A stretch of DNA of 60,249 nucleotides from Deltaproteobacteria bacterium (lineage in GTDB: Bacteria; Desulfobacterota; Desulfobacteria; Desulfobacterales; SpSt-501), in contig JACRCN010000095.1 in the NCBI GenBank assembly GCA_016219005.1, positions 1 to 60,249 on the forward strand, written 5' to 3'. The position numbers and the translations under genes were made by a program. This document shows positions 40,602-58,226 of this stretch, piece after piece. The stretch's first letter is position 1; every line of letters begins with the position of its first letter. The notes beneath the pieces are model-generated. The model saw nothing but the letters and a program-made list of their open reading frames with translations, was not told where the DNA came from and did not search any database.

Positions 40602-43034
40602 TTACAAGTCCTTCTTAAGGAAGTCTTCCGTTTCCTTGACTTCTCCCGGACGCTTGGTGAACTCGATCGGCACGGTGCCATCCTTGAAGCACTCGAAGAT
40701 CGTCTTGCGCGATTCAGGCACCGGCAAGAGTCCCGTTTCCGCGTCGACCTTGACGAAGACGACACCCTCGGGCGGTTCGAACACCTGGGGGGGCTGGTTC
40801 GCCAGCACCCGCTTCATGAACCCGAGCCAGATGGGGATGGCCGCAACGGCGCCGGTTTCGGTCTTGCCCAGCGGAGCCTCCTCATCGAAGCCGACCCAGG
40901 TGCCGGCGATGTACTCCCGGGTGTAGCCTAAATACCAGGCATCGTACATGTCGTTGGTGGTCCCGGTCTTGCCGGCGGACGGCCGGTTGAGGGCCTTGAC
41001 TCTCTGGCCCGTGCCATGCTGGACCACGCTCTCGAGCAGGCTGGTCATGATGTAGGCCGTATCCTTCTCGATGACCTGCCGGCGTCCGGCGCCCGCCTCT
41101 TCCAGGACCTGCCCGTCCCGGTCGACGATCTTCAGCACGAACACCGGCTCCACCAGGAAGCCCTGGTTGGCGAACACGGAGTAGGCTCGCGTGAGCTCGA
41201 ACAGGGACACCCCGGATGAGCCCAGGGCCAGGGCCAGGGTGCGGGTCAGGTCCGACGTGACCCCCAGCCGGCGGGCATAGTCGATCGCGTAATCCACTCC
41301 GATGTCCTGCAGGATCTTGATCGTCACCACGTTGCGCGACTGGGCCAGGGCCTCCCGCAGCAGCGTGGGGCCGTAAAAGGTTTCCCTGAAGTTCCTCGGC
41401 TTCCAGGTCTGGTCCCGCTCCTTGTCCTCGAACACCACGGCCGAGTCGATGATGACCGAGGCCGGGGTGTAGAACTTTTTGGGGTCTTTGAATTTCCGGT
41501 CCAGCGCCGCGGCGTAGATGATCGGCTTGAAAGCCGAGCCCGGCTGGCGCCGGGCCTGAACGGCGCGGTTGAACTGGTTCTCGGTGAAATCGCGCCCGCC
41601 CACCATGGCCTTCACCAGCCCGGTTTCGGTCTCAAGACACAGCAGGGCGCCCTGCACGACGGGGTCCTGCTCGAGGGCAAGGCGCCAGCCGCTATCCCTC
41701 TGGTCGTTGCGCTTCTCCTTGACCCTCACCAGGATGACGTCGCCGGTCTTGAGCGCTTCGCCGGGCCGCCTGAGCTTGGCTGCATAGTGGGCCACATCGG
41801 GGTTGGGTCTGCGCGCCCAGTCCATGTCCGCCAGAGCGATGACGCCCTGCTGGCTGCCGATGCGCACCGTCACCGTCTTGCCCGCGTCGTTCACCTGGGT
41901 GACAACCCCCCGGGCCGTCGCGCCGGCCTCGAGCGGCTTCTTGTCCAGGTCCGCCTGAACCTCGCCGGCGAAGGCCTCGATCTCATCGGCCCGGATCGAT
42001 TTCAGGGGGCCGCGGTACCCGTAGCGCTTGTCGAGCTCCATAAGCCCCTTGAGCACTTCCTCCTCGGCGGCCTTCTGGAAGCGAATGCTGACACCCGTGG
42101 TGATCTGAAGCCCCTGGGTGTAGAGGGCGTCGGTGCCGTACTTGGTCTCGACGTAGCGGCGCACATGCTCCGTGAAATAGGGGATCTCCTCGATGTAGAT
42201 GTTCCGGCGGGGTTTGATGTCGAGTTTGACGTTGAGGGCCTCGGCGGCCTGCGCGGCCGTGATGGTACCCTCCTCGACCATCCGGTTCAGCACGTAGACC
42301 TGGCGCTGCCGGGCCTGGTCGGGGTGGCGGAAGGGCGAATACCGGGACGGCGCCTGGGGCAGCCCGGCCAGGACGGTGCACTCGGCTAGACTCAGATCCT
42401 TGACCCGTTTGCCGAAATAGTTGTCCGCCGCCGCCTCGACCCCGTAGGCCCCGTGGCCGAGGTAGATCTGGTTCAGGTAGAGAAAAAGGATTTCCTCCTT
42501 GGTGAAGGCCTTTTCGATCCGATAGGATAAAATGAGCTCCTTGATCTTGCGGATATAGCTGCGTTCGGGCGTCAGCAGAAAGGAGCGCGTCACCTGCTGG
42601 GTGATGGTGCTGCCGCCCTGCTTGATGGTGCCGGCCTCCAAATTCTTGATGAAAGCCCGCACGATGCTGACGAGATCGAACCCCTGGTGCTTGAAAAAGC
42701 GGGAATCCTCGGCAGCGACGAAGGCGTTGACAAGGGTGGGCGGGACCTCGCTCAACGGTACGACGATGCGCCGCTCCTTGAAGAACTCTGCGATGACGCG
42801 ACCGTCGTCCGCAAAGACCTTGGAGATGATGGCCGGACGGTAGTCTCTGAGGGAGTTGATCTTGGGCAGGTCCTGGTCGATGTAGAGGTAGCCCCCCACC
42901 AGAGCCAGCCCCCCGAGAAGGCCGATCGCCAGCAGGAACAGGAGCGGGAAAAGGAGGAAGCGCCTGAAAAACCCGCGTTTTTTAGGGGGTCGGGATTGAG
43001 TTTGCTTCGGGGGTGCGGGTTTTTGCGGTACCAT
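40602..43034 (-). CDS. Class A penicillin-binding protein 1A
   Basis: 810 aa. A proline/basic cytoplasmic tail precedes a membrane anchor (about 26-50). The GT51 glycosyltransferase has EDSRFFKHQGFD and QGGSTITQQVTRSFLL. An OB-like insert spans about 320-420. The transpeptidase has the SxxK serine in GSAFKPIIYAAAL, the SRN triad and KTGTTNDMYDAWYLGY. It polymerises and cross-links peptidoglycan in the periplasm. The length and insert match MrcA/PBP1A of Gram-negatives. Divergent from hisI. Confidence 0.95.
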   Translation of the reverse strand: MVPQKPAPPKQTQSRPPKKRGFFRRFLLFPLLFLLAIGLLGGLALVGGYLYIDQDLPKINSLRDYRPAIISKVFADDGRVIAEFFKERRIVVPLSEVPPTLVNAFVAAEDSRFFKHQGFDLVSIVRAFIKNLEAGTIKQGGSTITQQVTRSFLLTPERSYIRKIKELILSYRIEKAFTKEEILFLYLNQIYLGHGAYGVEAAADNYFGKRVKDLSLAECTVLAGLPQAPSRYSPFRHPDQARQRQVYVLNRMVEEGTITAAQAAEALNVKLDIKPRRNIYIEEIPYFTEHVRRYVETKYGTDALYTQGLQITTGVSIRFQKAAEEEVLKGLMELDKRYGYRGPLKSIRADEIEAFAGEVQADLDKKPLEAGATARGVVTQVNDAGKTVTVRIGSQQGVIALADMDWARRPNPDVAHYAAKLRRPGEALKTGDVILVRVKEKRNDQRDSGWRLALEQDPVVQGALLCLETETGLVKAMVGGRDFTENQFNRAVQARRQPGSAFKPIIYAAALDRKFKDPKKFYTPASVIIDSAVVFEDKERDQTWKPRNFRETFYGPTLLREALAQSRNVVTIKILQDIGVDYAIDYARRLGVTSDLTRTLALALGSSGVSLFELTRAYSVFANQGFLVEPVFVLKIVDRDGQVLEEAGAGRRQVIEKDTAYIMTSLLESVVQHGTGQRVKALNRPSAGKTGTTNDMYDAWYLGYTREYIAGTWVGFDEEAPLGKTETGAVAAIPIWLGFMKRVLANQPPQVFEPPEGVVFVKVDAETGLLPVPESRKTIFECFKDGTVPIEFTKRPGEVKETEDFLKKDL

Positions 43035-46529: not shown

Positions 46530-47440
46530 CGACCACCTCCGATCCAGCCCCCGCCCCTTTTAAATCCGGCTACGTCACTATTGCCGGCGCGCCCAATTCC
46601 GGCAAATCCACGCTGCTCAACCGGATCCTGGGCGAAAAAATATCGATCATTTCCAGCAAGCCCCAGACGACGCGCACCCGGATCCTGGGCGTCTGCCACC
46701 GGCCCGGGGCCCAGATCGTTTTTTACGACACGCCGGGGGTCTTTGTTGCGAAGGACACGCTGAACCTGCGGATCGTGGATACGGCCATCGGCGCCATCGG
46801 CGAAGCCGATGTGCTGTTGGCCGTTGTGGACGCCGCGCGCCCGGACCCGGAGGCCGAAGACTGCCTGCTGCAAAAGATCCGGAACCAGAAACACCCGGCC
46901 GTCCTCGCCCTCAACAAGATCGACCTGGTCTCCGACAAACAGGGCCTCCTCGAAATCATCGAGCGGTGGTCCGGCCGCCACCCGTTTGAGGCCGTGGTGC
47001 CGATTTCAGCGCTCGACGGCACCCAGGTCGAAGAAATCGTCTCCGCTATCGTCAAAGCCCTTCCCGCGGGCCCGGCCTACTACCCCGAAGACACCCTGAC
47101 CGACGTGACCGAGCGATTCATTGCAGCCGAGCTCATCCGCGAGAAGCTCTTCCGGCTGACCGGCGAGGAAATCCCCTATGCCTCGGCCGTGACCGTGGAA
47201 GACTACAAACCGAGTGCGGACGGCAAGCGGGTGAGCATCGCGGCGACGATCCACCTCGAGCGCGATTCCCAGAAGGGGATCGTCATCGGCAAAGGGGGTG
47301 CCGTGCTGAAACGGATCGGTACCGAGGCCCGGCAGGACATCGAGCGGATGACCGGAGCGAAGGTTTACCTGAAGCTGTTCGTGCGGGTGCAGAAAAACTG
47401 GCGGAAGGACAGCAAGGCCATCGAACGCTTCGGTTATTGA
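46526..47440 (+). CDS. era: Ribosome-assembly GTPase Era
   Basis: 304 aa from the ATG at 46526, with GAAGAAGGA upstream. G1 GAPNSGKSTLLN, G2 QTTRTRILG, G3 DTPGV, G4 NKIDL, then a KH RNA-binding domain with KGIVIGKGGAVLKRIG (about 250-265). It binds the 3' end of 16S rRNA. A frame open back to 46172 lies inside engB and is not used. Confidence 0.97.
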   Translation: MTTTSDPAPAPFKSGYVTIAGAPNSGKSTLLNRILGEKISIISSKPQTTRTRILGVCHRPGAQIVFYDTPGVFVAKDTLNLRIVDTAIGAIGEADVLLAVVDAARPDPEAEDCLLQKIRNQKHPAVLALNKIDLVSDKQGLLEIIERWSGRHPFEAVVPISALDGTQVEEIVSAIVKALPAGPAYYPEDTLTDVTERFIAAELIREKLFRLTGEEIPYASAVTVEDYKPSADGKRVSIAATIHLERDSQKGIVIGKGGAVLKRIGTEARQDIERMTGAKVYLKLFVRVQKNWRKDSKAIERFGY

Positions 47441-47637
47441 ATGGAATTGACCCACCAGGAGAAAATGCCATGGACTCTTGCGAAAATGCGCTCTGCGGCC
47501 GAGTCGAAACTTCCATGCGCGTCCTGCCCGGAGGTGCTCCGCGGCAGGGCGGGGTCCGATTTCTCAACCTGATTCCTCCGGGCAAACATCGTCGCGGAGA
47601 TCGGCCGCCCGCGTCAGTCGGGCGGTCTTGCCTTGCG

Positions 47638-48282
47638 GTGGCCTCGCACGGCAGATTTTATGCGTGCCTGCTTTTGGCGGCCGGCCTGGTTTCCGGCTGT
47701 TTCGTTCCCCAAAAGCAATTCACGGATAAGCATCGCAACTTCTCGCTGGGCAAGGGCGAGCTTGCGAACCACGGCCTCGCCATCATTACGCCGTCCACGG
47801 TAACCGGCCAGGAGGAGGAAAAGCAGGGGGTCGCTCTCATCGCGGCCGAGGTTTTTAAAGAGAAGCGGCCGGACATACGCTGCGTCAGCCTGGCTGATAC
47901 GCTCAGTGCCGTCAATAGAGCCGGCCTGGCAGATCAATATAAGGATATGTACATCGATTACCGTGATACCGGCCTCTTCAAAAAGGACATGCTGAAGCGG
48001 ATCGGTGAGTTGACAGGGGTCAAGTACGTTGCGCAACTCAAACTGGCAAGCTTCAGCCAGAGCAACCGGAATCGGTTTCAAATCTTCGGGATGCGGATCC
48101 TTGAAACCGATAAAGCCGACCTGAGACTGGTACTGCAAATCTGGAACACCAGCGACGGCGCGATCGCCTGGGAGATTGTCGAGGAGCTTTCATACGCGCA
48201 GGACACGGTCTACAGCAGCACCGTTGCGCTTCGGACGATGCTTGAGGAGGTGTTGGAAAACGCGATCTCTCATTTGGAGTGA
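47638..48282 (+). CDS. Lipoprotein of unknown function
   Basis: 214 aa if begun at the GTG at 47638, which gives a compact lipoprotein signal (FYACLLLAAGLVSGC; lipid-modified Cys about residue 21). The frame is open further upstream: an ATG at 47470 has a good AGGAGA, but would put 67 mostly low-complexity residues before the signal, unlike any export signal. The mature domain is mixed alpha/beta (GLAIITPSTVTGQ, VKYVAQLKLASF, VLQIWNTSDGAIAWEIVEE), reminiscent of small envelope lipoproteins of unknown role. Not recognised further. Confidence 0.6.
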   Translation: MASHGRFYACLLLAAGLVSGCFVPQKQFTDKHRNFSLGKGELANHGLAIITPSTVTGQEEEKQGVALIAAEVFKEKRPDIRCVSLADTLSAVNRAGLADQYKDMYIDYRDTGLFKKDMLKRIGELTGVKYVAQLKLASFSQSNRNRFQIFGMRILETDKADLRLVLQIWNTSDGAIAWEIVEELSYAQDTVYSSTVALRTMLEEVLENAISHLE

Positions 48283-48295
48283 TGTGCCATTTTGA

Positions 48296-48540
48296 GACAG
48301 CTTCAACCGTACTGCCGCCGGGGCGGAGATCGATCTCTTCTTGACGAAAGGAAAAAGGCAGATCGCCGTGGAATGCAAAGCGTCCTCGGCGCCGGAGGTG
48401 GGGAAGGGATTCTGGAGCGCCCTGAAGGACCTCGGTATCAAAGAAGCCCGGGTCGTCGCCCCCGTCAAGGAATCCTATCCGATTGAAATGAATGTTTTCA
48501 TGGCAAACCTCGGGGAGTTCCCGGCAAAAATGGTTAAATG
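48296..48540 (+). pseudogene. C-terminal remnant of a DUF4143 (AAA-type) ATPase
   Basis: After a TGA at 48293 the frame reads FNRTAAGAEIDLFLTKGKR, then IAVECKASSAPEVGKGF and ALKDLGIKEARVVAPV. RTxxGAEIDL followed by a VECK strand is the nuclease-like C-terminal DUF4143 domain of the common bacterial AAA+ ATPase/DUF4143 proteins. Everything upstream, including the P-loop domain (some 300 residues), is missing, and there is no start codon with a ribosome binding site. It is a relic between the lipoprotein and the kinase gene. Confidence 0.6.
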
Positions 48541-48575
48541 CCGCGGCCGAGTAAGAAACCGGCGATGGGGGGCGG

Positions 48576-50675
48576 TTATCGGTCTTTTTCCAGCATTTTC
48601 CGGACGGTCCCGGCAAGCTCCCTCAACCCGAAAGGCTTCATGAGGAACCCCTGGAACCCAAGGCTTTTCGCTCTTTCGGGGCTGCTCTTTTCACTGAAGC
48701 CGGTACAGAGAAGTATGGGAAGATTCGGCCGAAGCTTGAGCAGCTCCCTGGCAAGGTCCACGCCCGTCATATGGGGCATGGTCATGTCCGTGATCACCAG
48801 CGCGTAGGGCTTTTCGTCGGACTGGTGACGGAAGGCTTCCAGCGCCTCAAGACCGTTCGTTCGATAATCGACCTCGTAGCCCAGACATTCGAGCATTTGT
48901 GTTGTGGCCGTGGCCAGAGCGGGCTCATCGTCAACGATCAGAAGCTTTTCCCGGCCATGCGGAATAGGAGCGGCCTCCACCGTTTCCGATGCCGGGGCAC
49001 TTTGCCTGGCAGGGAAAAAGACCCGGAATGTTGTTCCTTTGCCGGGGACGCTGTTCACCTCGATGCCGCCCTCATGGCTTTTCACAATGCCGTGCACAAC
49101 GGAAAGCCCCAATCCGGTTCCGGTTCCCTGCTCCTTGGTGGTGAAGAAGGGATCGAAAATGCGATCGAGAACGCCGGGTTCCATGCCATGGCCCGTATCC
49201 GTGACGGTGAGCTTCACATGCGATCCCGGCTGCAAACCGGAATGAGGCTTAATGTCTTGCGGCTCCAGATGAACATCGCTCAGGGTCACCTCTAGAACCC
49301 CGCCCTTCTCCAGCATGGCATGCGCCGCATTGGTGCATAGGTTCATCAGTACCTGATGGACCTGAGTCGGATCAGCCATCACCACTCCCCTGGAGGTCAG
49401 ATTCATTTTGATCTCGATCGTTGACGGCAGAGACGCCCGCAGCATTTTCATTACCTCTTTCACGACCGGCCCGACCTGCACCGGCTTCTTCTCCTGCTCC
49501 TTCTGGCAACTGAAGGCCAGAATCTGCCGCACCAGATCCTTGGCCCGATGGGCGGCCTTGAGCACCTCCTGGAGGTCCTTGCTCACAGGAGCTCCTTCGC
49601 CTGCCTCCAACTGGCCGATTTCCGCGTAGCCGAGAATAACCCCGAGGATGTTGTTGAAGTCATGGGCGATCCCCCCCGCCAAGGTGCCCAGCGCCTCCAT
49701 TTTCTGAGCCTGTCTCAGCTGAGATTCGACACGGGTCCGTTCCTCTTCCGCCCGCTTGTGCTCGGTGATGTCGCGGCTGACGCCAAGCACGCCCAATACC
49801 TCTCCATCCGGGCCGTAATATGGGGTCTTGAGGGTGTCAAGCAACACGAGTTGGCCGCTCGGATAGGTAACCCACTCCTCGTAGCGTCGAGTCCTGCCGG
49901 CAGCCAGCATTTCCCGATCCTTTCGTCGATAGGACTCGGCGCTCTCCCGGTCGAAGAAATCGAAATCGGTATGGCCCACGAGTTCTGATTCGGGCCGGCC
50001 TGCGTAAGCCTCGAAGGCCTTGTTGCAGCCCAGGTAGACGCTGTTCGAGTCCTTGAAAAAAATCAGGTCCGGACTGGAATCGATGAGCGAGCGCAGCAAA
50101 GCGCGTCCACGCAGGATTTCGGCCTCCGCCCGCTTGCGTTCGCTGATATCGTGAAACACCATCATGAGACTGGGCCGCCCGCCCAAATCCAGGCGCATGA
50201 TCCGGATTTCGGCCCAAAAGGTGCTTCCATCACGGCGTTTAACGCTGGCTTCGATCGGACCTTCAGCCTTGTTCTGGACACCACTTGGGGATTTGTCGCC
50301 GGCGCGGAGTGGATCGGCGGAAGGCAGCACGTCTGCAAGCGAAAGATCCGGCAGTTCTTCTTTTCCGTATCCCAGCATGCGACCGATGGACTCATTGCCC
50401 ATCACGGGTTGCCCGGTCTCGATATCCATCACAAGAATGCCGTCCGTGATGTGCTCGAACAGCAGGCGGAACCTCTTTTCACTATCCTCGGCCCTGCGGC
50501 GTGCTTCATCGCGCTCCGTCAGCATGCTCAACAAGGTTGCTGATTTTTCTTCCAGTTCCTGGATGCGCGCATGCAATTGGGGGTAATAGCTTTTGCGACC
50601 GGCCCGTTCCCCCAGCCCCATGATCTTTTTCCGAATGTCGACCCAATCCGGTTGTGCTTCAGAGGGCTTGTTCAT
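48576..50675 (-). CDS. Hybrid PAS-PAS sensor histidine kinase with receiver (ErcS-like)
   Basis: 699 aa, no membrane helix, so cytoplasmic. N-terminal coiled coil, PAS 1 (about 68-190), PAS 2 (about 195-318), H-box GGIAHDFNNILGVILGY with the phospho-His near 350, N-box NLCTNAAHAML, G-boxes DTGHGM and GTGTGLGLSVVHGI, and a C-terminal receiver (about 575-695) with the phospho-Asp in VITDMTMPHMTG. The start overlaps the end of the preceding Fe-alcohol dehydrogenase gene by 17 nt. That pairing recalls ErcA-ErcS of pseudomonads, where both act in a regulatory chain for alcohol oxidation. Confidence 0.92.
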   Translation of the reverse strand: MNKPSEAQPDWVDIRKKIMGLGERAGRKSYYPQLHARIQELEEKSATLLSMLTERDEARRRAEDSEKRFRLLFEHITDGILVMDIETGQPVMGNESIGRMLGYGKEELPDLSLADVLPSADPLRAGDKSPSGVQNKAEGPIEASVKRRDGSTFWAEIRIMRLDLGGRPSLMMVFHDISERKRAEAEILRGRALLRSLIDSSPDLIFFKDSNSVYLGCNKAFEAYAGRPESELVGHTDFDFFDRESAESYRRKDREMLAAGRTRRYEEWVTYPSGQLVLLDTLKTPYYGPDGEVLGVLGVSRDITEHKRAEEERTRVESQLRQAQKMEALGTLAGGIAHDFNNILGVILGYAEIGQLEAGEGAPVSKDLQEVLKAAHRAKDLVRQILAFSCQKEQEKKPVQVGPVVKEVMKMLRASLPSTIEIKMNLTSRGVVMADPTQVHQVLMNLCTNAAHAMLEKGGVLEVTLSDVHLEPQDIKPHSGLQPGSHVKLTVTDTGHGMEPGVLDRIFDPFFTTKEQGTGTGLGLSVVHGIVKSHEGGIEVNSVPGKGTTFRVFFPARQSAPASETVEAAPIPHGREKLLIVDDEPALATATTQMLECLGYEVDYRTNGLEALEAFRHQSDEKPYALVITDMTMPHMTGVDLARELLKLRPNLPILLCTGFSEKSSPERAKSLGFQGFLMKPFGLRELAGTVRKMLEKDR

Positions 50676-51819
50676 AAAGCACCTCGATGTCGCGCAAGGT
50701 CGGCTGCGTCGGGTTGGTGGCTAGACACGGGTCGTTAAAGGCATCGTGTGCCATGGCAGGTATGTCGCCAGGCCGCACGCCCATTTGCCCGAGTGTCTGG
50801 TGGATGCCCACGCCCCGGCGGAACTGGCTCAGTGCATCCGCCAGCCTCGCCCCATCGGTGGGCAATCCCTCCAGGTCGAGCCCCATGGCCCGGCCCGCGG
50901 CGCGATATCGCTCTGCGGCGGCAGCGAAGTTGAAAAGCACCACATGCTCCAGCAAAATCGCATTGCAGTCGCCGTGGGCCATATCCAGCCTCCCGCCCAG
51001 GGCATGAGCCATGCTGTGGACCAGTCCCAGGCTGGCATTCGAAAAAGCCAGTCCCGCCAGCAGGCTGCCCATCATCATCCCATTGCGGCTCGCTATATTC
51101 TTGGGTTCATGGACCGCGGCAGGCAGGCAGCGGTTGATCAAACGGATCGCCTCAAGGGCGTTCAGGTCCGTCAGCGGCGAGCTGGCGTTGGAAACATAGG
51201 CTTCAAGGGCGTGCACCAGCGCGTCCACACCGGTAGCGGCGGTCAGCTGGGCCGACATGGTGAGCGTCGTGGACGGGTCGATCAAGGCCACATCGGGCAC
51301 CATGGTTTTGCTGATGATGGCGATCTTGACCTTGCGCGCCGTATCGGTGATGACGGCAAACTGCGAAACGTCGGCCGCGGACCCCGCCGTAGTAGGGATG
51401 CAGAGCAGGGGCGGACCGGGCACAACCACTTCGTCCAGCCCCTCGAATGCGAGGACATGGCGGTTGTTGGTGACGACGATGCCGATGGCTTTGGCACAGT
51501 CCATCGGGCTGCCGCCGCCCACGACGACGATGACGTCGCACTTTTCAGACCGATATACTTCGGCGCCGGCCATGGCTTCGTGGTCTTTGGGGTTGGGGGT
51601 TACGCCCTCAAAGACCGCGTAGGCGATCCCGGCCTCCTTCAGCGACTTCTCGGCAGCCCCTGCCCAACCGGCCGCCCGCACTCCGGGGTCGGTTACCAGG
51701 AGTACCTTGCAGGCGCTGTAGCCGGAGGCGTATTGTCCCGTGAGATCAATGGCGCCTTCTCCAAAGACAATTTCCGGAGAGACGAACTTCCTCAATTCCC
51801 TTGCGTCACACGCAGCCAT
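50659..51819 (-). CDS. ercA: Iron-containing alcohol dehydrogenase, ErcA-like
   Basis: 386 aa. LRKFVSPEIVFGEGA start, nucleotide loop VVGGGSPMDCAKAIG, and Fe ligands in GVDALVHALEAY (Asp, His), GLVHSMAHALGG (His) and MAHGDCNAI (His). Length and the stretch PTTAGSAADVSQFAVI match ErcA, an Fe-ADH homologue that in Pseudomonas has a regulatory role in ethanol oxidation, besides true class III alcohol dehydrogenases. The fused reading frame order with the PAS kinase supports the ErcA assignment; enzymatic activity cannot be excluded. Confidence 0.82.
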   Translation of the reverse strand: MAACDARELRKFVSPEIVFGEGAIDLTGQYASGYSACKVLLVTDPGVRAAGWAGAAEKSLKEAGIAYAVFEGVTPNPKDHEAMAGAEVYRSEKCDVIVVVGGGSPMDCAKAIGIVVTNNRHVLAFEGLDEVVVPGPPLLCIPTTAGSAADVSQFAVITDTARKVKIAIISKTMVPDVALIDPSTTLTMSAQLTAATGVDALVHALEAYVSNASSPLTDLNALEAIRLINRCLPAAVHEPKNIASRNGMMMGSLLAGLAFSNASLGLVHSMAHALGGRLDMAHGDCNAILLEHVVLFNFAAAAERYRAAGRAMGLDLEGLPTDGARLADALSQFRRGVGIHQTLGQMGVRPGDIPAMAHDAFNDPCLATNPTQPTLRDIEVLYEQAL

Positions 51820-52432
51820 CGCTTTTCTCCTCCTGCCTTGACCATGCTTTCTTATGCGGGATACCTCTGTCAGGGTGTTGAAAACGGAGCTTCAGGCCGG
51901 CAACCGGCGTTGCGTGGCGTTTGGCAATGCGCACCTGTTATTGACGATGCCGCGCTTTCCAAAACGCCGCACACCTTGGCGGACGGCGTGATGCTTGTTT
52001 TTCAAGAGACCGCTATAGGGTTCGATGGTCCTGGGTGCTTCCGGGCTCAAATGTCACAACGCAGCTTAAAATTATCATTCAAGGAAAAATCAATCTTGCG
52101 AGCGTGTGCGCGCTAACTGCGGTGTGCAGCGAGTGGCGCAGCCCTAGGCGCAGAGGGCTTGTTGGGCAGCTTCTGAATGGGGGCAGGGGGAAAATCTAGC
52201 TTTGGCTTTTCTTACACCGTTGAAAACAGCGCGAAATCAACAAACCGCATAGCCCGTTGAACCGCCTGGCTGTCCGATTCGTCCCGCTTGATGCAGCGGC
52301 AAGTCCTTCAACTTTATTATATATTAGTTCTGAATAAGAAGGCAAGCTGAATAATTGTTCCCCTGCCGGCGGCATCGATACCAGCTTCACGAATTTTCAA
52401 CCGGAGCAGGCTTATCAACCGGCGCGGAACTC
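51820..52432. other. Intergenic region between ercA and the DMT transporter
   Basis: About 610 bp without a supported gene. The base composition falls towards AT in 52040-52330. I looked for sigma54 and sigma70 promoters on the minus strand and found no convincing match; open frames on either strand have no family resemblance. Confidence 0.5.
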
Positions 52433-53353
52433 TTAGGGTCGTATTCGGGCGAGCAATCGGCCGTCGATGGCGGCAAGCCCGGCCCCGATCAGCCCCATTC
52501 CTGAAAAATGCCGCCAGGCAAGCTGCTCGCCGAGAAAGACCGTTCCCAAAATAATGGCACTCACAGGGATGAGAAACGTCACCAGCATGATGTTGGTAGC
52601 CCCCGCTGTGGCAAGCACGCGGCAGTAGATAATATAGCCCAGGGCGGTGGATAGAGTCGCTAGCCCGAAGACCGCCCACAGTACCGGTGCCGCAGGAATG
52701 GGGAGCCCCCAGGGATGGTCCACCGCAAGCGCTAACGGCAGCATCACGATCGCCGATGCGCTCAGCATCCCGGTGGCGGTAACGACCGGGTGCACGCCAA
52801 GGCGCTGGAAACGCCTGCCGTATATTCCGGCAAACGAATAGCAGACGGTTGCCCCGAGAACAGCCATTTGAGCGAAGATGTTCGTGCCTAGACCTTGAAG
52901 CGCTTCCGGGCCGATAATTACACTGACGCCCGTCAGCCCGACCAGCACGCCAATCAGACGGTTTGTGGTCAATTTCTCATCCCGGGTTAAAAAATGCGCA
53001 ACGATGACGGTGAACACCGGAGTCGTTGCATTCAGGATCGAGGCCAAACCGCTGGCGATGTGCGTCTGGCCCCAGAACGTCAGGCTGAAAGGCACCACGT
53101 TGTTGAGAACCCCCATGCAGAAAAAGGCGGACCAGGTTTTCCGGTCCGTTGGCATGCGCAGGCCGACCGCCGGAACAACCAGGTTCAGCACGACCGCGGC
53201 CAGCGCCACACGCAAGAAAACCATGGTCAGCGGCGGCAGCGATTTTACGGCAACCCCGACAAAGAAAAATGTGCCACCCCAGATGACCGAGAGGGCCAGC
53301 ACGAGACTCCACTCCTGCAACCCCATGGTGTTGCTGACATCGTACTCTTCCAT
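52433..53353 (-). CDS. EamA/DMT-superfamily membrane transporter
   Basis: 306 aa from the ATG at 53353, with AGGGAGG upstream. About ten transmembrane helices in two EamA repeats: VIWGGTFFFVGVAVKSLPPL in the first, ATVCYSFAGIYGRRF at the start of the second, and ISAIILG-type ends. The family exports amino acids and other small metabolites; the substrate is unknown. It is divergent from the molybdopterin oxidoreductase gene. Confidence 0.9.
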   Translation of the reverse strand: MEEYDVSNTMGLQEWSLVLALSVIWGGTFFFVGVAVKSLPPLTMVFLRVALAAVVLNLVVPAVGLRMPTDRKTWSAFFCMGVLNNVVPFSLTFWGQTHIASGLASILNATTPVFTVIVAHFLTRDEKLTTNRLIGVLVGLTGVSVIIGPEALQGLGTNIFAQMAVLGATVCYSFAGIYGRRFQRLGVHPVVTATGMLSASAIVMLPLALAVDHPWGLPIPAAPVLWAVFGLATLSTALGYIIYCRVLATAGATNIMLVTFLIPVSAIILGTVFLGEQLAWRHFSGMGLIGAGLAAIDGRLLARIRP

Positions 53354-53600
53354 GCAACCTCCCTTTCGTGATGTGCGGCACCCACCATAACCAGGATAAA
53401 GGGGTGAGGCCACCCGTTTCTTGCGGTATTCTGTTGAGGTTGGCGGGAATCCATGGAAACGGATGCGCGCGGCGGGGTATGCAAAGGCCCTAATGAAATG
53501 CAATTCAATGGGCCATTTTGGTGTAAAGTCCTCGCGGACTATGGCCATTCGGTTCTGTTTTTGGTACGTTTTGCAAGATTTCACCGATGTCGAGGTGCCA

Positions 53601-55505
53601 ATGCCAATCATAACCGCCTGCTCCCAGGACTGTCCGGATACCTGCTCATTGGTGGTGGAAACGTCACCTTCGGGCCGGGTGCTTATCAAAGGCAACCCTG
53701 ACCATCCCTTCACGGCCGGATTCTGCTGCGCCAAGATCAAGTCCTGGCATCGCCGCTTGAACAGCCCAAGCCGGATTACCGCTCCCTTGATGCGCGACGG
53801 GACAGGGTGGCGCGCGATCGGCTGGGACGAGGCGCTCGAAATCTGCGCGGCCCGGATCCGGGCGTTGCGAGCTGAACCGTTGTCGATCCTGCACCTGGAC
53901 AGCAGCGGCAATATGGGGTTGATGGTCCAGGTTCCTCAACACTTTTTCAATTTGTTGGGGGCCAGCCGGGCCTCCGGAGGCCTTTGCGCAAGCGCCGGCC
54001 TGGCAGCGTGCCAAGCTGATTTTGGGAAGGTGGAACACAATGAGCCAGGCGATCTTCTGAATGCCCGAGTGGTCGTCAACTGGGGCAGGGACATTGCCCG
54101 TACCTCTGTTCACCTGGCCGCCTTGGTCAAAAAGGCCCGCAAGAAGAACACGCGGGTGCTGACCATATCACCCGGAGGCGACGGACACGAGGCTTGGACC
54201 GACGAGTTCATTCGCGTGCGCCCAGGCCAGGACCGTTTTCTGGCCGCGGCGGTGTGTCGAACGCTCATTGAGGGCGGACACACAATTGCTGGCATAGACG
54301 ACGTGGCCGCCAACTGGCTGGCTTTCCGAAAAGTCGTCATGGCCCAACCGGCAAGAGAAATGGCCAAGGCCTGTGGAGTCGGCCAGGCCGAGGTGGAACG
54401 CCTGGCTGAGGTTTACGGGTCCGGCGAGCCTGTAGCCACGCTTATCGGCTGGGGGCTGCAGCGTCACATCTACGGGGCGGAGAATGTCCGGTTCACCAAC
54501 GCGCTGGCCTTGCTTGCGGGCCACATCGGTCGTTCCGGAGGCGGGTCCTACTACATTGCTCCATCCACCCGGCATCTCGATCTGGGCTGGTTGTCAAAGC
54601 CCGTGCCGGATCAGTGCAATCGCTTCTTCAAACCCACCATCGGACGGGACATCCTTGCGGCCGACCCTGCGGTGAAGATGATCTGGGCCAACGGGACCAA
54701 CCCGGTCAACCAAGCGCCGGATTCGCACCAGGTGGCCCGGGCGTTTCGTTCGGTTCCCTTCAAGGTGGTGGTGGATGCTTTCATGACCGACACGGCCGAG
54801 TTGGCTGACTTGATTCTGCCTTGCACGCTCAACTTGGAGCAGGAAAACCTGAACCCGTCCTATTTCCACGACTTCATCAATTACGCCCGCCCGGCATTCA
54901 CGCCGCCGGCCTGCGCCCGTAGCGACCACTGGATTCTGACCCAGGTGGGGCGGCGGCTGAACCCACCCATCGATCTACCGCTGATGGAGGAGTTGATTGC
55001 CGCCAGCCTGCCGTCTGCTGCGGGAGTCGGGTTGGAAGAGTTGCGACGCACCGGTTATGTGCAAATCAAGCGGCCCGCCGTATCTTTCGAGGGCATGCAT
55101 TTCGCCCACCCGGACGGCCGCTATCGCTTCCCGGAGGAACTTCACATAGACCCGCCTGCGCCCGACGGGTACCCGCTGCGGCTGCTCAGCCTCATCCGGT
55201 CCGAGGCCATCCACTCGCAGATGCTACCCGAAGACCACATCCATCCGCCCAAGGTATACCTGGCCGCGGATAGCCCCTCCTGGTCCAACCTGAAAAGCTC
55301 GCAACCGGTGTTCATGGTATCGCCACTGGGGCGGCTTGAGGTTCAACTGGTGGAGCTGCCCGGGCTTTATGCGGATGTTGTGGTCTATCGCCGCGGCGAC
55401 TGGCTTAAGCTGGGAGGAGGAGCCAATCAGCTGATCGCCGATGTGGCTACGGACCACGGCTCGGGAGCTGCCTATTATGCCCAGCATGTCAGGCTCGAAA
55501 ATTAG
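53601..55505 (+). CDS. Molybdopterin-dependent oxidoreductase
   Basis: 634 aa from the ATG at 53601, with GAGGTG upstream. The N-terminal [4Fe-4S] site is CSQDCPDTC...FCCAK. The molybdopterin domains include RITAPLMRDG, GWDEALEIC, WGRDIARTS, GWGLQRHIYG and WANGTNPVNQAPD, and the C-terminal dinucleotide-binding domain follows from about 530. No Tat signal, so cytoplasmic. It belongs to the large DMSO-reductase family branch of short single-subunit enzymes; no iron-sulfur or membrane partner gene is adjacent. It is followed after 22 nt by a cyclase-family hydrolase, probably in one operon. Substrate unknown. Confidence 0.88.
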   Translation: MPIITACSQDCPDTCSLVVETSPSGRVLIKGNPDHPFTAGFCCAKIKSWHRRLNSPSRITAPLMRDGTGWRAIGWDEALEICAARIRALRAEPLSILHLDSSGNMGLMVQVPQHFFNLLGASRASGGLCASAGLAACQADFGKVEHNEPGDLLNARVVVNWGRDIARTSVHLAALVKKARKKNTRVLTISPGGDGHEAWTDEFIRVRPGQDRFLAAAVCRTLIEGGHTIAGIDDVAANWLAFRKVVMAQPAREMAKACGVGQAEVERLAEVYGSGEPVATLIGWGLQRHIYGAENVRFTNALALLAGHIGRSGGGSYYIAPSTRHLDLGWLSKPVPDQCNRFFKPTIGRDILAADPAVKMIWANGTNPVNQAPDSHQVARAFRSVPFKVVVDAFMTDTAELADLILPCTLNLEQENLNPSYFHDFINYARPAFTPPACARSDHWILTQVGRRLNPPIDLPLMEELIAASLPSAAGVGLEELRRTGYVQIKRPAVSFEGMHFAHPDGRYRFPEELHIDPPAPDGYPLRLLSLIRSEAIHSQMLPEDHIHPPKVYLAADSPSWSNLKSSQPVFMVSPLGRLEVQLVELPGLYADVVVYRRGDWLKLGGGANQLIADVATDHGSGAAYYAQHVRLEN

Positions 55506-55527
55506 ATTCGCCAGGAAGTGAGGCATC

Positions 55528-56415
55528 ATGGATCGTCGGGTGAAGTTTGATTTCGAGATCGAGTTTACGATCGGCGGCGGAATCCAAGGGCAGGATTTTC
55601 GCCTTGATATTGCCGGGGACGGGATCTCTGATGAAGAGCTTGCCGCTTACATCGTACAAGACATGCGACTTCTGATGGTCGGAGGAGTACGCATTCTTAA
55701 CAAGGAAATTCTAACTGAAAATCATAAACGCCATCCGATCAACGATGGCTCCAAACGGTCGTCTTTCATCGATGTGAGCCACACCATCGAGACTGGTCTG
55801 ATCACGTATAGAGGATTACCCGCTCCCATCATCTGCGACTATCTGAGCAGGGAAAAATCCAGAGATATCTACGAAACAGGCACCGAATTCCAGATCAGCA
55901 GATTCGAAATGGTCGCAAACACGGGCACGTATGTGGATTGCCCTTTTCACCGATACGGACACGGCAAGGATTTGTCCCAAGTTGCCTTAGAAGCATTCGC
56001 TGACCTTGAAGGCATTGTCATCCGAGCCGACTATCGCAAAACATTGGCCGTTGATGCGGCGTTTTTCAAGGAGAAGGAAATCCGAAACAGGGCCGTTTTG
56101 GTGCATACGGGCTGGGACTTTCACTGGAACACCGCCGCGTATTTTGAGAACCATCCTTATCTAACCGAAGATGCCGCCCTGTACCTGCAAAAATGCGGTG
56201 TCAAACTGGTTGGCATCGACTCGATGAACATCGACAGCACTCACGGCAGGTGCAGACCGGTTCATTCCATTCTGCTGGCATCCAATATTCTCATTGTTGA
56301 ACATTTATGCAATTTGGCTGAACTGCCCGACGAGGGTTTTCTGTTCAGCGCCGTGCCGCCCAAGTTCAAAGGAGCGGGGACGTTCCCTGTTAGAGCAATG
56401 GCGAAACTTAAATAA
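55528..56415 (+). CDS. Cyclase-family (kynurenine formamidase-like) protein with altered metal motif
   Basis: 295 aa, ATG at 55528 behind GAGG. Residues 1-65 are an extension not found in the family (FDFEIEFTIGGGIQGQDF). From FIDVSHTIETGLITYRG on it is a cyclase-family fold. The usual metal site HxGTHxDxPxH reads NTGTYVDCPFH here: the first two His are replaced by Asn and Tyr, while Asp and the last His remain. Variant members of this kind exist, so a different metal or reaction is possible. The C-terminal GIDSMNIDS and HSILLASNILIVEHLCNL are typical. The gene is more AT-rich than those before it, an early sign of the island. Confidence 0.8.
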   Translation: MDRRVKFDFEIEFTIGGGIQGQDFRLDIAGDGISDEELAAYIVQDMRLLMVGGVRILNKEILTENHKRHPINDGSKRSSFIDVSHTIETGLITYRGLPAPIICDYLSREKSRDIYETGTEFQISRFEMVANTGTYVDCPFHRYGHGKDLSQVALEAFADLEGIVIRADYRKTLAVDAAFFKEKEIRNRAVLVHTGWDFHWNTAAYFENHPYLTEDAALYLQKCGVKLVGIDSMNIDSTHGRCRPVHSILLASNILIVEHLCNLAELPDEGFLFSAVPPKFKGAGTFPVRAMAKLK

Positions 56416-56566
56416 TCGTGCTGCTATTCAATCTCGATCAGCACTTTAGCTTTTACTGAGTTCGCTATGAAACAATTCTCATGCGACACTCTTGCAGAGA
56501 AACAAAAACTATGCCCCTTTTACGAAATGGTTAAATGATGAGAGCGTCCTGGAATGCCCGGGCGGG
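56416..56566. other. Gap before the tRNA
   Basis: No gene or clear promoter seen. A G-rich stretch (56557-56576) leads directly into the tRNA. Confidence 0.4.
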
Positions 56567-56642
56567 GTGGCGGCGGTTGAGGCTGGAGAGCGCTACCCTG
56601 ACACGGTAGAAGTCGGCGGTTCAAATCCGCCCGTGCCTACCA
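56567..56642 (+). tRNA. tRNA-Val(GAC), mispaired acceptor stem (possible pseudogene)
   Basis: 76 nt including an encoded CCA. Anticodon arm CTACC-CTGACAC-GGTAG (56593-56609; anticodon GAC), 5-nt variable loop, and T-arm GGCGG-TTCAAAT-CCGCC (56615-56631) are perfect. The D-arm GTTG...GAGC pairs at three of four positions. The acceptor strands GTGGCGG (56567-56573) and CGTGCCT (56632-56638) pair at only about three of seven positions. An alternative 5' strand, GGGCGGG at 56560, pairs better but leaves 7 extra bases before the D-arm. Either way the 5' part is abnormal, as after damage or recombination at an integration site. Confidence 0.6.
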
Positions 56643-56650
56643 AATAAAAT

Positions 56651-56696
56651 CGGGCGGTTAGATCTTAATTGGTCTAACCGCCCGTTGTGTTTTTTG
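56651..56696 (+). terminator. Terminator after the tRNA
   Basis: CGGGCGGTTAGA (56651-56662) and its exact complement (56673-56684), then TTGTGTTTTTT. Confidence 0.9.
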
Positions 56697-57285
56697 GGTA
56701 TATTTTGTATCCCCACGAAGGCCAGAAACCGGTTATTCTCGGCAACTCCTGGCGCCTACCCTGAATGGATTAGCTGAGCGGGTCTGTGAATAGGTTACGA
56801 GGCCGCTCAATATCTGGCCTTTTCAGAATTCGCAATCTTCGACTATATGCTGTTAATTGCATCCGCTTGGCGCCAACCGCTTTTCATGGGATATATCCTG
56901 ACACACAATCTATCCAAGTACTTCCAGTCAATGCGCCGACGATTATCTGAATGATCCGCTGTATCCCCACGAATTGCAATTTTGAAAGATCCTTCGGCCC
57001 GATGAGCTAGGGCTTGCCCAAAAGCATCAGAAAATAGGTCTGAGCGGATGGGTCTCCGTTGTTGACAGCCTCAAAAGGTGGTGCTACGAGCGTAACCGTT
57101 TCAGGGGACTAAATGCCGTTCCGATATTTTGAGGCAGCGATGCAGGAGGAGCACAATCACACTCATGGGCAATCGCCGCCCTTCAAAAGCGGGTTCTTTT
57201 CCTTAAAATTTTTATTTTGCTCAACATTTTGAGGCCACGAATGCGCCTATCTTCACAAACCGTTACCTGTCGAGGAGACAATTAC
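56697..57285. other. AT-rich gene-free stretch at the island border with short direct repeats
   Basis: No gene found in about 590 bp. TGTATCCCCACGAA occurs at 56706-56719 and again at 56960-56973. ATTTTGAGGC occurs at 57126-57135 and 57226-57235, each followed by a related CGA..TGC tail, with an inverted copy of its core (GCCTCAAAA) at 57068-57076. These may be att-like or regulatory repeats; no integrase gene is visible. Confidence 0.45.
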
Positions 57286-57927
57286 ATGAAACCAAGGTTC
57301 ACAACTGTAGCTCTCATTTTGCTCATAGGAAGTCTAATAGGCGGATGTTATAAGTACAGGATCTCTGATGTCCAAGCTCAGTTTGAAGCAACCGGAAAAT
57401 ACTCTGTAGTGGTGGCCAGCTTGGATCAACGTCAATTTATTGTCGATAAAACAAGTCCTGATACTTATGTTGGAATGGTAAGAGGGTTTTTTGGAAATCC
57501 TTGGAATTTTACAACCATGAGCGGATTGCCATTTTCTGATGATGTTAGTCAAGCAATTTGCAATTCACTTAGCCGCAAAGGATTCACAGCAAAACTTGTT
57601 TCGGTTAAGTTCGATTTGACTGAAGAGAAGGTACGCGAGCGACTTCTCTCTAATAAAGAGGATCGCGCCCTCCTTGTTATCATTCGAAAATGGGAAAGCG
57701 ATACATACGCCAACATGAATGTGGGCTACGATTTAATTCTGAAAGTGATCGCTAAAGATGGAACCATATTAGCTACCGCCCAAGCCAGAGATGAAGTACA
57801 CGTACCCAGCAATATAATGGCAGCACCAGTTTATATGTCCGAAAAGGAGGTTCCAAATATTTTTAAAAAATCCATCGAATCGCTTTTAAATAATCCTGAC
57901 ATTGTAAAAGTTCTCGCCAGCAATTAG
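57286..57927 (+). CDS. Lipoprotein of unknown function
   Basis: 213 aa from the ATG at 57286 with GAGGAG upstream; a TTG further up is not needed. A lipoprotein signal (FTTVALILLIGSLIGGC) places the Cys near residue 22. The mature part alternates strands and helices (YSVVVASLDQRQFIVDK, SRKGFTAKLVSVKF, YDLILKVIAKDG), a layout seen in small envelope lipoproteins. Not recognised. Codon use is AT-rich compared with the core genes, in keeping with acquisition. The next gene, a STAND NTPase, has its own promoter, so a functional link is uncertain. Confidence 0.75.
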   Translation: MKPRFTTVALILLIGSLIGGCYKYRISDVQAQFEATGKYSVVVASLDQRQFIVDKTSPDTYVGMVRGFFGNPWNFTTMSGLPFSDDVSQAICNSLSRKGFTAKLVSVKFDLTEEKVRERLLSNKEDRALLVIIRKWESDTYANMNVGYDLILKVIAKDGTILATAQARDEVHVPSNIMAAPVYMSEKEVPNIFKKSIESLLNNPDIVKVLASN

Positions 57928-57967
57928 CAACTAATAAAGGAAGGTTGATCGACAGGCGAATCAATTC

Positions 57968-57996
57968 TTGACCTGATCTTAGAGCGAGGATACAAT
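57968..57996 (+). promoter_or_regulatory. Sigma70 promoter
   Basis: TTGACC (57968-57973), exactly 17 nt, TACAAT (57991-57996). Expected start near 58003. It is followed by a hairpin and a terminator before any gene. Confidence 0.65.
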
Positions 57997-58002
57997 AGCA
58001 AG

Positions 58003-58098
58003 AACAAATAGTTAGGCATAGACCCTTTAAACGAGGTGGCTATAAGCCAAGGAGCGGAACCCCATATCTCATTCAGGATGTGGGGTTTTGTGTTTTAT
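58003..58098 (+). ncRNA. Possible small RNA of about 95 nt
   Basis: Between the promoter at 57968 and a strong terminator there is no open frame with a ribosome binding site. The predicted transcript has a hairpin TGGCT-ATA-AGCCA (58037-58049) and ends in the 58058-58087 stem with a T-rich tail. It may be an sRNA, or a leader whose terminator attenuates transcription into the STAND gene 130 nt further on. Confidence 0.35.
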
Positions 58099-58100
58099 TT
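58058..58100 (+). terminator. Terminator between the island promoter and the STAND gene
   Basis: AACCCCATATC (58058-58068), 8-nt loop, GATGTGGGGTT (58077-58087): 11 bp with one G-U pair, then TTGTGTTTTATTTT. Confidence 0.75.
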
Positions 58101-58226
58101 TGCGAATAAGTGACCAGAAGGCGCCCTAAATTTCAACACCATTGACCTCCATGGGAAAAAGAAAGAAAAGGCCAAGGAATCCCAACTCGCCGAAGGATAA
58201 GTAACACTAATTCTCTCGAGGATATT

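Follow-up and report, generated by a model that had tools for sequence, protein, structure and literature searches.

A piece of a valine tRNA gene lies close to the right end of the DNA analyzed here (the window, an entire contig, C65, of 60,249 b in a 5.24-Mb draft genome of 106 contigs with 4.67% contamination). A sequence-only reading of this region took the piece for a damaged tRNA-Val that marks the border of an AT-rich island. Is it a tRNA gene, the edge of an island, or neither? At first inspection, the first part of that reading fits. The anticodon arm (GAC) and the T arm are intact, and the two acceptor strands fail to pair: opposite CGTGCCT on the 3' side AGGCACG is required, and the window reads TGGCGGC at that register, so that the paired acceptor stem of a functional tRNA-Val is absent. 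ARAGORN calls no tRNA in the window, and the Rfam tRNA model scores the fragment at 30.9 bits, below each of the other 40 of the genome's 41 matches (45.9-74.8). The proposed comparison with other Val tRNAs revealed an intact tRNA-Val(GAC) gene in the same assembly, at C29:15252-15323, which is identical to the fragment at 58/58 positions; the copy in the window is thus not the sole GAC gene. Elsewhere, identity over these 58 nt is at most 51/58 for the other compared Val tRNAs of the genus (leaving out the 18/58 of the GAC gene of G006, an end-shifted ARAGORN call that gives an alignment artefact), 49/58 for the genome's own CAC gene and 36/58 for its TAC gene. Each of the three Val anticodons, GAC, CAC and TAC, has an intact gene in this genome. 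The 17 nt where the tRNA 5' end should stand are unrelated to the gene, and the fragment is therefore not functional. The acceptor stem had been described as chimeric; it is no tRNA-tRNA chimera, since its 5' side is unrelated DNA. The features of the locus are collected in Table 1.

Table 1. Features around the tRNA-Val fragment, by position in the window
Feature	Position	Strand	Evidence or remark
Cyclase (PF04199), 49.9% GC, in AT-rich DNA left of the fragment	55528..56415	+	No match in 6/6 genus relatives, some of them incomplete
Short repeat R60	56488..56559	+	56500-56559 copied in island E1 at C16:33328-33386; shorter copies at C19:43764 and C88:159200
Site of the absent tRNA 5' end; GC-rich unrelated DNA	56568..56584	+	4/17 nt match the intact gene
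3' part of tRNA-Val(GAC), non-functional, spanning D-arm 3' strand through CCA	56585..56642	+	Identity, ARAGORN, Rfam
Left arm (terminator and downstream DNA)	56643..56844	+	Homologous to the left end of E1 at C16:42646-42845(-); 178/200 aligned bases
Arm terminator hairpin, CGGGCGGTTAGA...TCTAACCGCCCG, then a T-run	56651..56684	+	Sequence reading; same place in C16 and in the G004 attL
Arm motif, GGGTATATTTTGTATCCC; core begins 56 nt past CCA	56696..56713	+	Mismatch scoring across tRNA-Val loci
Two more short dispersed repeats	56869..56987	+	Also present elsewhere in the order
R220, copy of a dispersed leader-like genus repeat, ~220 nt	56982..57201	+	68-75% identity to copies at C66 and C7; also in G004 and G005
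Predicted lipoprotein, possible island cargo, 40.3% GC	57286..57927	+	No match in 6/6 genus relatives
AAA/STAND-like NTPase with TPR repeats, possible island cargo; runs past the contig end	58227..60249	+	

As a border, the fragment does not hold up. Composition was said to drop just downstream of the tRNA; in fact the GC drop lies some 1 kb left of it, at ~55.5 kb, from 60.9% in the gene preceding the cyclase to 49.9% in the cyclase itself. To the right of the fragment, GC runs at 48.6, 40.3 and 42.5% up to 58.2 kb and at 55.6% thereafter. AT-rich, strain-specific DNA, expected on the arm side of an attL, is thus present there, and likewise on the left side for ~1 kb. Core genes were also said to stop just downstream. 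The gene order common with four genus relatives (G002-G005) ends past Era, at ~47.4 kb, 9 kb left of the fragment; past Era, the order in G001 is unlike both the window and G002-G005, and the G006 contig stops there. Since strain-specific DNA begins at ~47.4 kb and the GC fall at ~55.5 kb, the fragment is not the border of the core genes. It marks a change neither of gene order nor of composition, and is located within strain-specific DNA rather than at its edge. The ~9 kb of genes 3' of Era (47438-56415) stand in an order unlike that of G002-G005, which carry at that place pilus-type genes (predicted from translations) followed by MnmE and YidC.

The DNA that directly follows the fragment is unlike the 3' flank of the intact GAC gene on C29. 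Instead, it matches what follows tRNA-Val(CAC) on C16, with 178/200 aligned bases identical. The fragment is of GAC type and its flank of the C16 CAC type; a GAC tRNA half is therefore joined to a CAC-site flank. On C16, tRNA-Val(CAC) (42849-42920, adjoining scpB) is the site of an AT-rich island of ~10.3 kb, here called E1 (32.49-42.92 kb), with 47.7% GC against 61.5% and 62.0% in its flanks. A conserved gene at C16:31999-32448, read from its translation as predicted SET-domain-like, sits 10.4 kb from tRNA-Val(CAC). In G006 and G005, the aligned end of the same gene is only 52 nt and 566 nt from tRNA-Val(CAC), respectively, and E1 is absent from the corresponding locus in both. On the far side of E1 lies a decayed attR, TCCAGGAGCGCGTACCATGAAATAAA, at C16:32491-32516(-), which matches the tRNA end and flank of a relative's attR (G004, below) at 23/26 positions. 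Its score of 37 compares with a maximum of 27 in 500 shuffles; tRNA ends sought downstream of tRNA-Val(CAC) in G002, G003, G005 and G006 (with ~1 kb searchable in the last) score 16-19. Among seven E1 ORFs scanned, five match Pfam families (GNAT acetyltransferase, AAA ATPase, OmpA, PAS histidine kinase, SnoaL-like) and two match none.

The genus relative G004 carries both kinds of end. Its tRNA-Val(CAC) on C70 also adjoins scpB; a similar arm comes next and is cut off by the contig end. This attL shares the tRNA and the first part of the arm with the window, at 83% over 129 nt (from a query including the tRNA, run on 58 genomes with five candidates scored in each). When 56651-56990 was the query for 291 genomes of the order, with two candidates scored in each, the genome itself was the only one to match over the arm; matches in four others were restricted to short pieces downstream of it. 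On G004 C130, a CAC 3' fragment that starts at the anticodon arm is followed by native genes in the G005 order. On C91 there is a GAC 3' fragment, and ~3.2 kb further on stand genes that are sited downstream of the GAC tRNA in G002 and G003. Judged by these sequences, G004 has its native CAC flank at attR and an island-borne one at attL, and for this reason we read the flank in the window as an island arm. Against that reading, G002 and G003 have a terminator like that of C16 at their CAC genes, where no tRNA fragment was found; these terminators may be relics. The idea that the CAC terminator is simply native flank was dropped, since the flank by native genes at the G004 attR differs.

In all, tRNA-Val 3' fragments without an ARAGORN tRNA were found at six places in five genomes of the order (G041, G007, G029, G047 and two in G004). 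They come from seven candidate places picked from a larger table of partial matches; the seventh candidate (G049 C329) sits inside tRNA-Met and was discarded. All six start 10-14 nt further 3' than the homology in the window does. In G047 (C20, 70-78 kb), a tyrosine integrase ends ~150 nt before the tRNA-Val(CAC) 3' fragment. This place is a prophage end, with a head protein, a small terminase and the integrase preceding the tRNA-Val(CAC) fragment. A second copy of the tRNA 3' end, which had been suggested as the other att site, did not turn up: a search of the genome with the region returned intact tRNA genes elsewhere and no second Val fragment. Likewise, a search for a GAC attR on C29 (15.3-34 kb) and in the window (44.0-56.5 and 56.7-60.2 kb) gave best scores of 16-23, with no null run to set beside them. 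On C29, ~18 kb past the intact tRNA-Val(GAC) (15.34-33.2 kb) has 55.1% GC and no matches in the compared relatives; with an arm motif and no attR found, this stretch is a probable second island.

The arm motif was scored as TAYATTTTGTAT over the 130 nt past CCA, and was picked with the sequences already seen. The window, its source, has 0 mismatches, the genome's own CAC locus 1, its GAC locus 2, and the CAC and GAC loci of G004 2 and 3, all at 44-57 nt. The own TAC locus has 5, eight other genus loci 5-6 and the six attR flanks 3-5; the CAC locus of G002 shows a gapped resemblance to the motif. Another 22 loci of the order have 2-6 mismatches (2 in one, 3 in four). In the scoring, L082, a repeat of the G001 GAC locus, was counted once. 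Across 29 loci (L055-L083; 23 with GAC, 5 with CAC and 1 without tRNA-Val), integrases of the L060 family occur at the tRNA-Val(GAC) 3' end in four: those of L060 and L070 are full-length, that of L057 is in two pieces and that of L078 is a 30-aa remnant. G007 has an integrase beside its tRNA-Val(GAC). The integrase-bearing L057, L060 and L070 have 4 mismatches each to TAYATTTTGTAT. We also searched for inverted and direct arm copies before the fragments, using two motif forms in two orientations on 8 pre-fragment stretches (32 tests, 300 shuffles each). Inverted arm-matched pieces precede both G004 fragments, at 52 nt for CAC (0/300 shuffles) and at 65 nt for GAC (1/300); G047 gave one weak direct match (p 0.04, among the 32 tests). 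Before the fragment in the window, nothing reached p <= 0.05 in either form or orientation, which argues for a left rather than a right island end.

As in an attL half-site of the E1 family, then, a tRNA-Val 3' half is joined directly to the left arm and its motif. The complete tRNA that such a site restores is not there, and we call the site a truncated relic because the 5' 17 nt are absent. Nor does it look like an attR as Islander defines it, a fragment followed by native chromosomal flank, as an island-type left arm follows instead. An attR with its island to the left was likewise considered and rejected, since the 3' flank is island-type and the strain-specific stretch begins, on its left, without any tRNA called by ARAGORN. 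The claim that an island integrated at this tRNA therefore survives in part: the 3' flank shares homology with the E1 left end, relatives carry attR-like fragments, and the island had been placed downstream, the side of the tRNA that bears the left arm. What falls away is the role of border, the chimeric stem and the direct repeats as an att pair.

No integrase was seen by the earlier reading, and the contig indeed has no phage-integrase domain (PF00589); C16, which carries E1, has none either. Three such domains exist in the genome, on C1, C72 and C94. The C94 protein is, by length and by reading of its sequence, a putative phage-type integrase, and C94 has no entry in the genome tRNA list; the C72 and C1 proteins are taken for putative Xer-type recombinases.

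The DNA around the fragment is rich in repeats. Between the cyclase and the lipoprotein, 657 of 870 nt belong to repeats found elsewhere (intervals entered by hand). The paired direct repeats noted earlier fared unequally: TGTATCCCCACGAA stands exactly at 56706 and 56960 (3 matches at up to 2 mismatches against 0.32 expected, a number reached in 0/100 shuffles), and ATTTTGAGGC is near chance (10 matches at up to 1 mismatch against 4.4 +- 2.1; 1/100 shuffles reaches 10). They were rejected as an att pair, since one TGTATCCCCACGAA copy overlaps the arm motif, the other belongs to a separate short repeat, and ATTTTGAGGC is near chance. The E1 copy of R60 is ~0.8 kb from the right end of E1; a pattern search found no R60 in the 6 other genus genomes, and the same pattern also missed the C16 copy owing to an indel. 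Copies of R220 occur in the window and at L122, L087, L125, L126, L128 and L130. Eight of ten inspected copies stand directly before a same-strand gene start, the genes including TRAP dctP-like ones and an aminotransferase (all predicted). A pattern from two R220 copies had no exact match in the genome-contig collection, from which the genome itself is possibly absent. A riboswitch was considered for R220 and rejected: no Rfam family matched it up to E = 1, a search that gave only the tRNA fragment and one match far under the cut-off, and the consensus fold over 9 copies is weak. In the STAND-like NTPase, the TPR units are highly alike, and the only PADLOC match is a weak TPR one. Elsewhere in the genome, GC drops sharply to about 40% toward a contig end at C88 163-166 kb. 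C87 as the continuation of the window is unsupported; its left end bears an ORF that reads, in translation, as antitoxin-like.

We consider it rather likely that the fragment is a relic attL-type half-site belonging to a family of AT-rich islands whose integration targets are tRNA-Val genes in this Desulfobacterales genus. On the standard scheme, a tyrosine integrase would cut in the anticodon loop. The island would supply a fresh tRNA 3' half and, with it, a left arm of its own made up of terminator and arm motif; the old host 3' half would be displaced to the far end as attR. The window would then keep the island-borne 3' half and the left arm, and the DNA right of 56643 would be an island copy, with its AT-rich cargo, repeats, lipoprotein and STAND/TPR gene, that extends beyond the contig end. 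A later rearrangement in the repeat-rich strain-specific DNA would have removed or replaced the 17 nt of the tRNA 5' end, orphaning the island border; the truncation would thus have come after integration. Several points run counter to this account: PF00589 is missing from both C65 and C16, no arm motif precedes the fragment at p <= 0.05, the far end of the island would lie past the contig end, the homology starts 10-14 nt further 5' than in the six relative fragments, the motif was picked with the sequences already seen and has 2-3 mismatches at five other loci of the order too, and the tRNA part is GAC-type, yet the arm is of the CAC-site type. Moreover, 11% of the arm positions deviate from C16, whereas the tRNA part has 0 changes in 58 nt. 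If the two were equally old and unconstrained, the chance of 0/58 would be ~0.04 (at half of the arm divergence) to 0.001 (at all of it). These numbers therefore allow a plausible role for conversion by the GAC gene, or a tRNA half younger than the arm.

Other histories could produce the same junction. The fragment could separate two islands, with the right part of one (R60 and the cyclase) before it and the left arm of the other after it, an attP-like junction such as a tandem array or a circle inserted again would leave. R60 recurs about 0.8 kb from the right end of E1, both sides are AT-rich and the cyclase is strain-specific; against this, the arm motif is absent left of the fragment, R60 also has copies at C19 and, in part, at C88, near which the genome list shows no tRNA, and the left end of the strain-specific stretch has no tRNA. 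We regard such a junction as unlikely. Somewhat less probable still is a plain pseudogene, in which a tRNA-Val region with CAC flank was duplicated, converted by the GAC gene and shorn of its 5' end, all without a mobile element. The repeat mosaic would suit that history (657/870 nt between cyclase and lipoprotein), and the unchanged tRNA part, at a probability of ~0.04-0.001, makes conversion, or a younger tRNA part, plausible, but the copied flank appears to be island-borne, as the flank by native genes at the G004 attR differs from that at its attL.

An assembly chimera, in which the 58-nt tRNA repeat linked genuine reads from the left arm of an island to unrelated sequence, is improbable. 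In its favour, the assembly is a draft of 106 contigs with 4.67% contamination, the shared block matches C29 without a difference and breaks off abruptly on the 5' side, and in G004 contigs stop 77 nt past a tRNA-Val and 193 nt before a fragment. Yet the arm differs from C16 at 22/200 bases and is therefore genuine separate DNA; Era is single-copy in the assembly, so that C65 is not a second copy of the Era region. We hold in equally low regard the bolder idea that islands of a family with conserved arms and no integrase pass between the two tRNA-Val isoacceptor genes and that the window preserves a decayed isoacceptor-swapping integration. Since everything 3' of the anticodon loop, loop included, would come with the island, a GAC-half island entering a CAC gene would rewrite the anticodon and leave a mismatched acceptor stem. 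A functional unusual tRNA or tRNA-derived RNA can be practically dismissed: intact anticodon and T arms, CCA and a terminator are there, but the 5' acceptor strand is missing, the model score is low and intact genes serve all three Val anticodons.

The relic attL half-site, our preferred reading, belongs to a kind already known; the island family behind it is possibly undescribed, a suggestion whose sole basis is that no literature was found on tRNA-Val genomic islands with integrase in Desulfobacter. Such fragments can mislead annotation into calling a tRNA gene and the eye into drawing an island border, and comparison with relatives separates what is tRNA, what is island and what is neither. 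In the present case it also brings to light that an uncultured Desulfobacterales genus has islands with a conserved arm at its tRNA-Val genes, and it prompts the question whether one island crosses between isoacceptor genes. Islands at tRNA genes are described as carrying a gene-restoring tRNA part at one end and displacing the old part to the other (PMC4383910, PMC9897764); in the Islander account, 3760/3919 islands have a 3' fragment (PMC4383910). The islands studied here resemble that class in combining an intact tRNA with its own 3' fragment and in their AT-rich insert, and the fragments of relatives likewise begin at the anticodon arm. Islander looks for a fragment of a tRNA gene in the same replicon, and the gene on C29 is in the same assembly and presumably the same replicon. 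Islander further expects the 3' fragment 2-200 kb downstream of the intact tRNA and in the same orientation; here C29 and C65 are separate contigs. Unlike the islands of that account, the window joins its fragment to an island-type left arm rather than to native flank, and no integrase domain lies on the assembled part of the interval. Fragments of tRNA genes are expected to be pervasive in prokaryotes (PMC9897764), and ours is like the misread fragments treated there, incomplete copies that integration leaves behind and that score low against the model; the integration cases presented in that source differ in being an attR that adjoins an identified element. E1, with no PF00589 domain, is like the integrase-less islands or hitcher elements set out in PMC11389934, a state that decay and a non-autonomous life style would explain alike.
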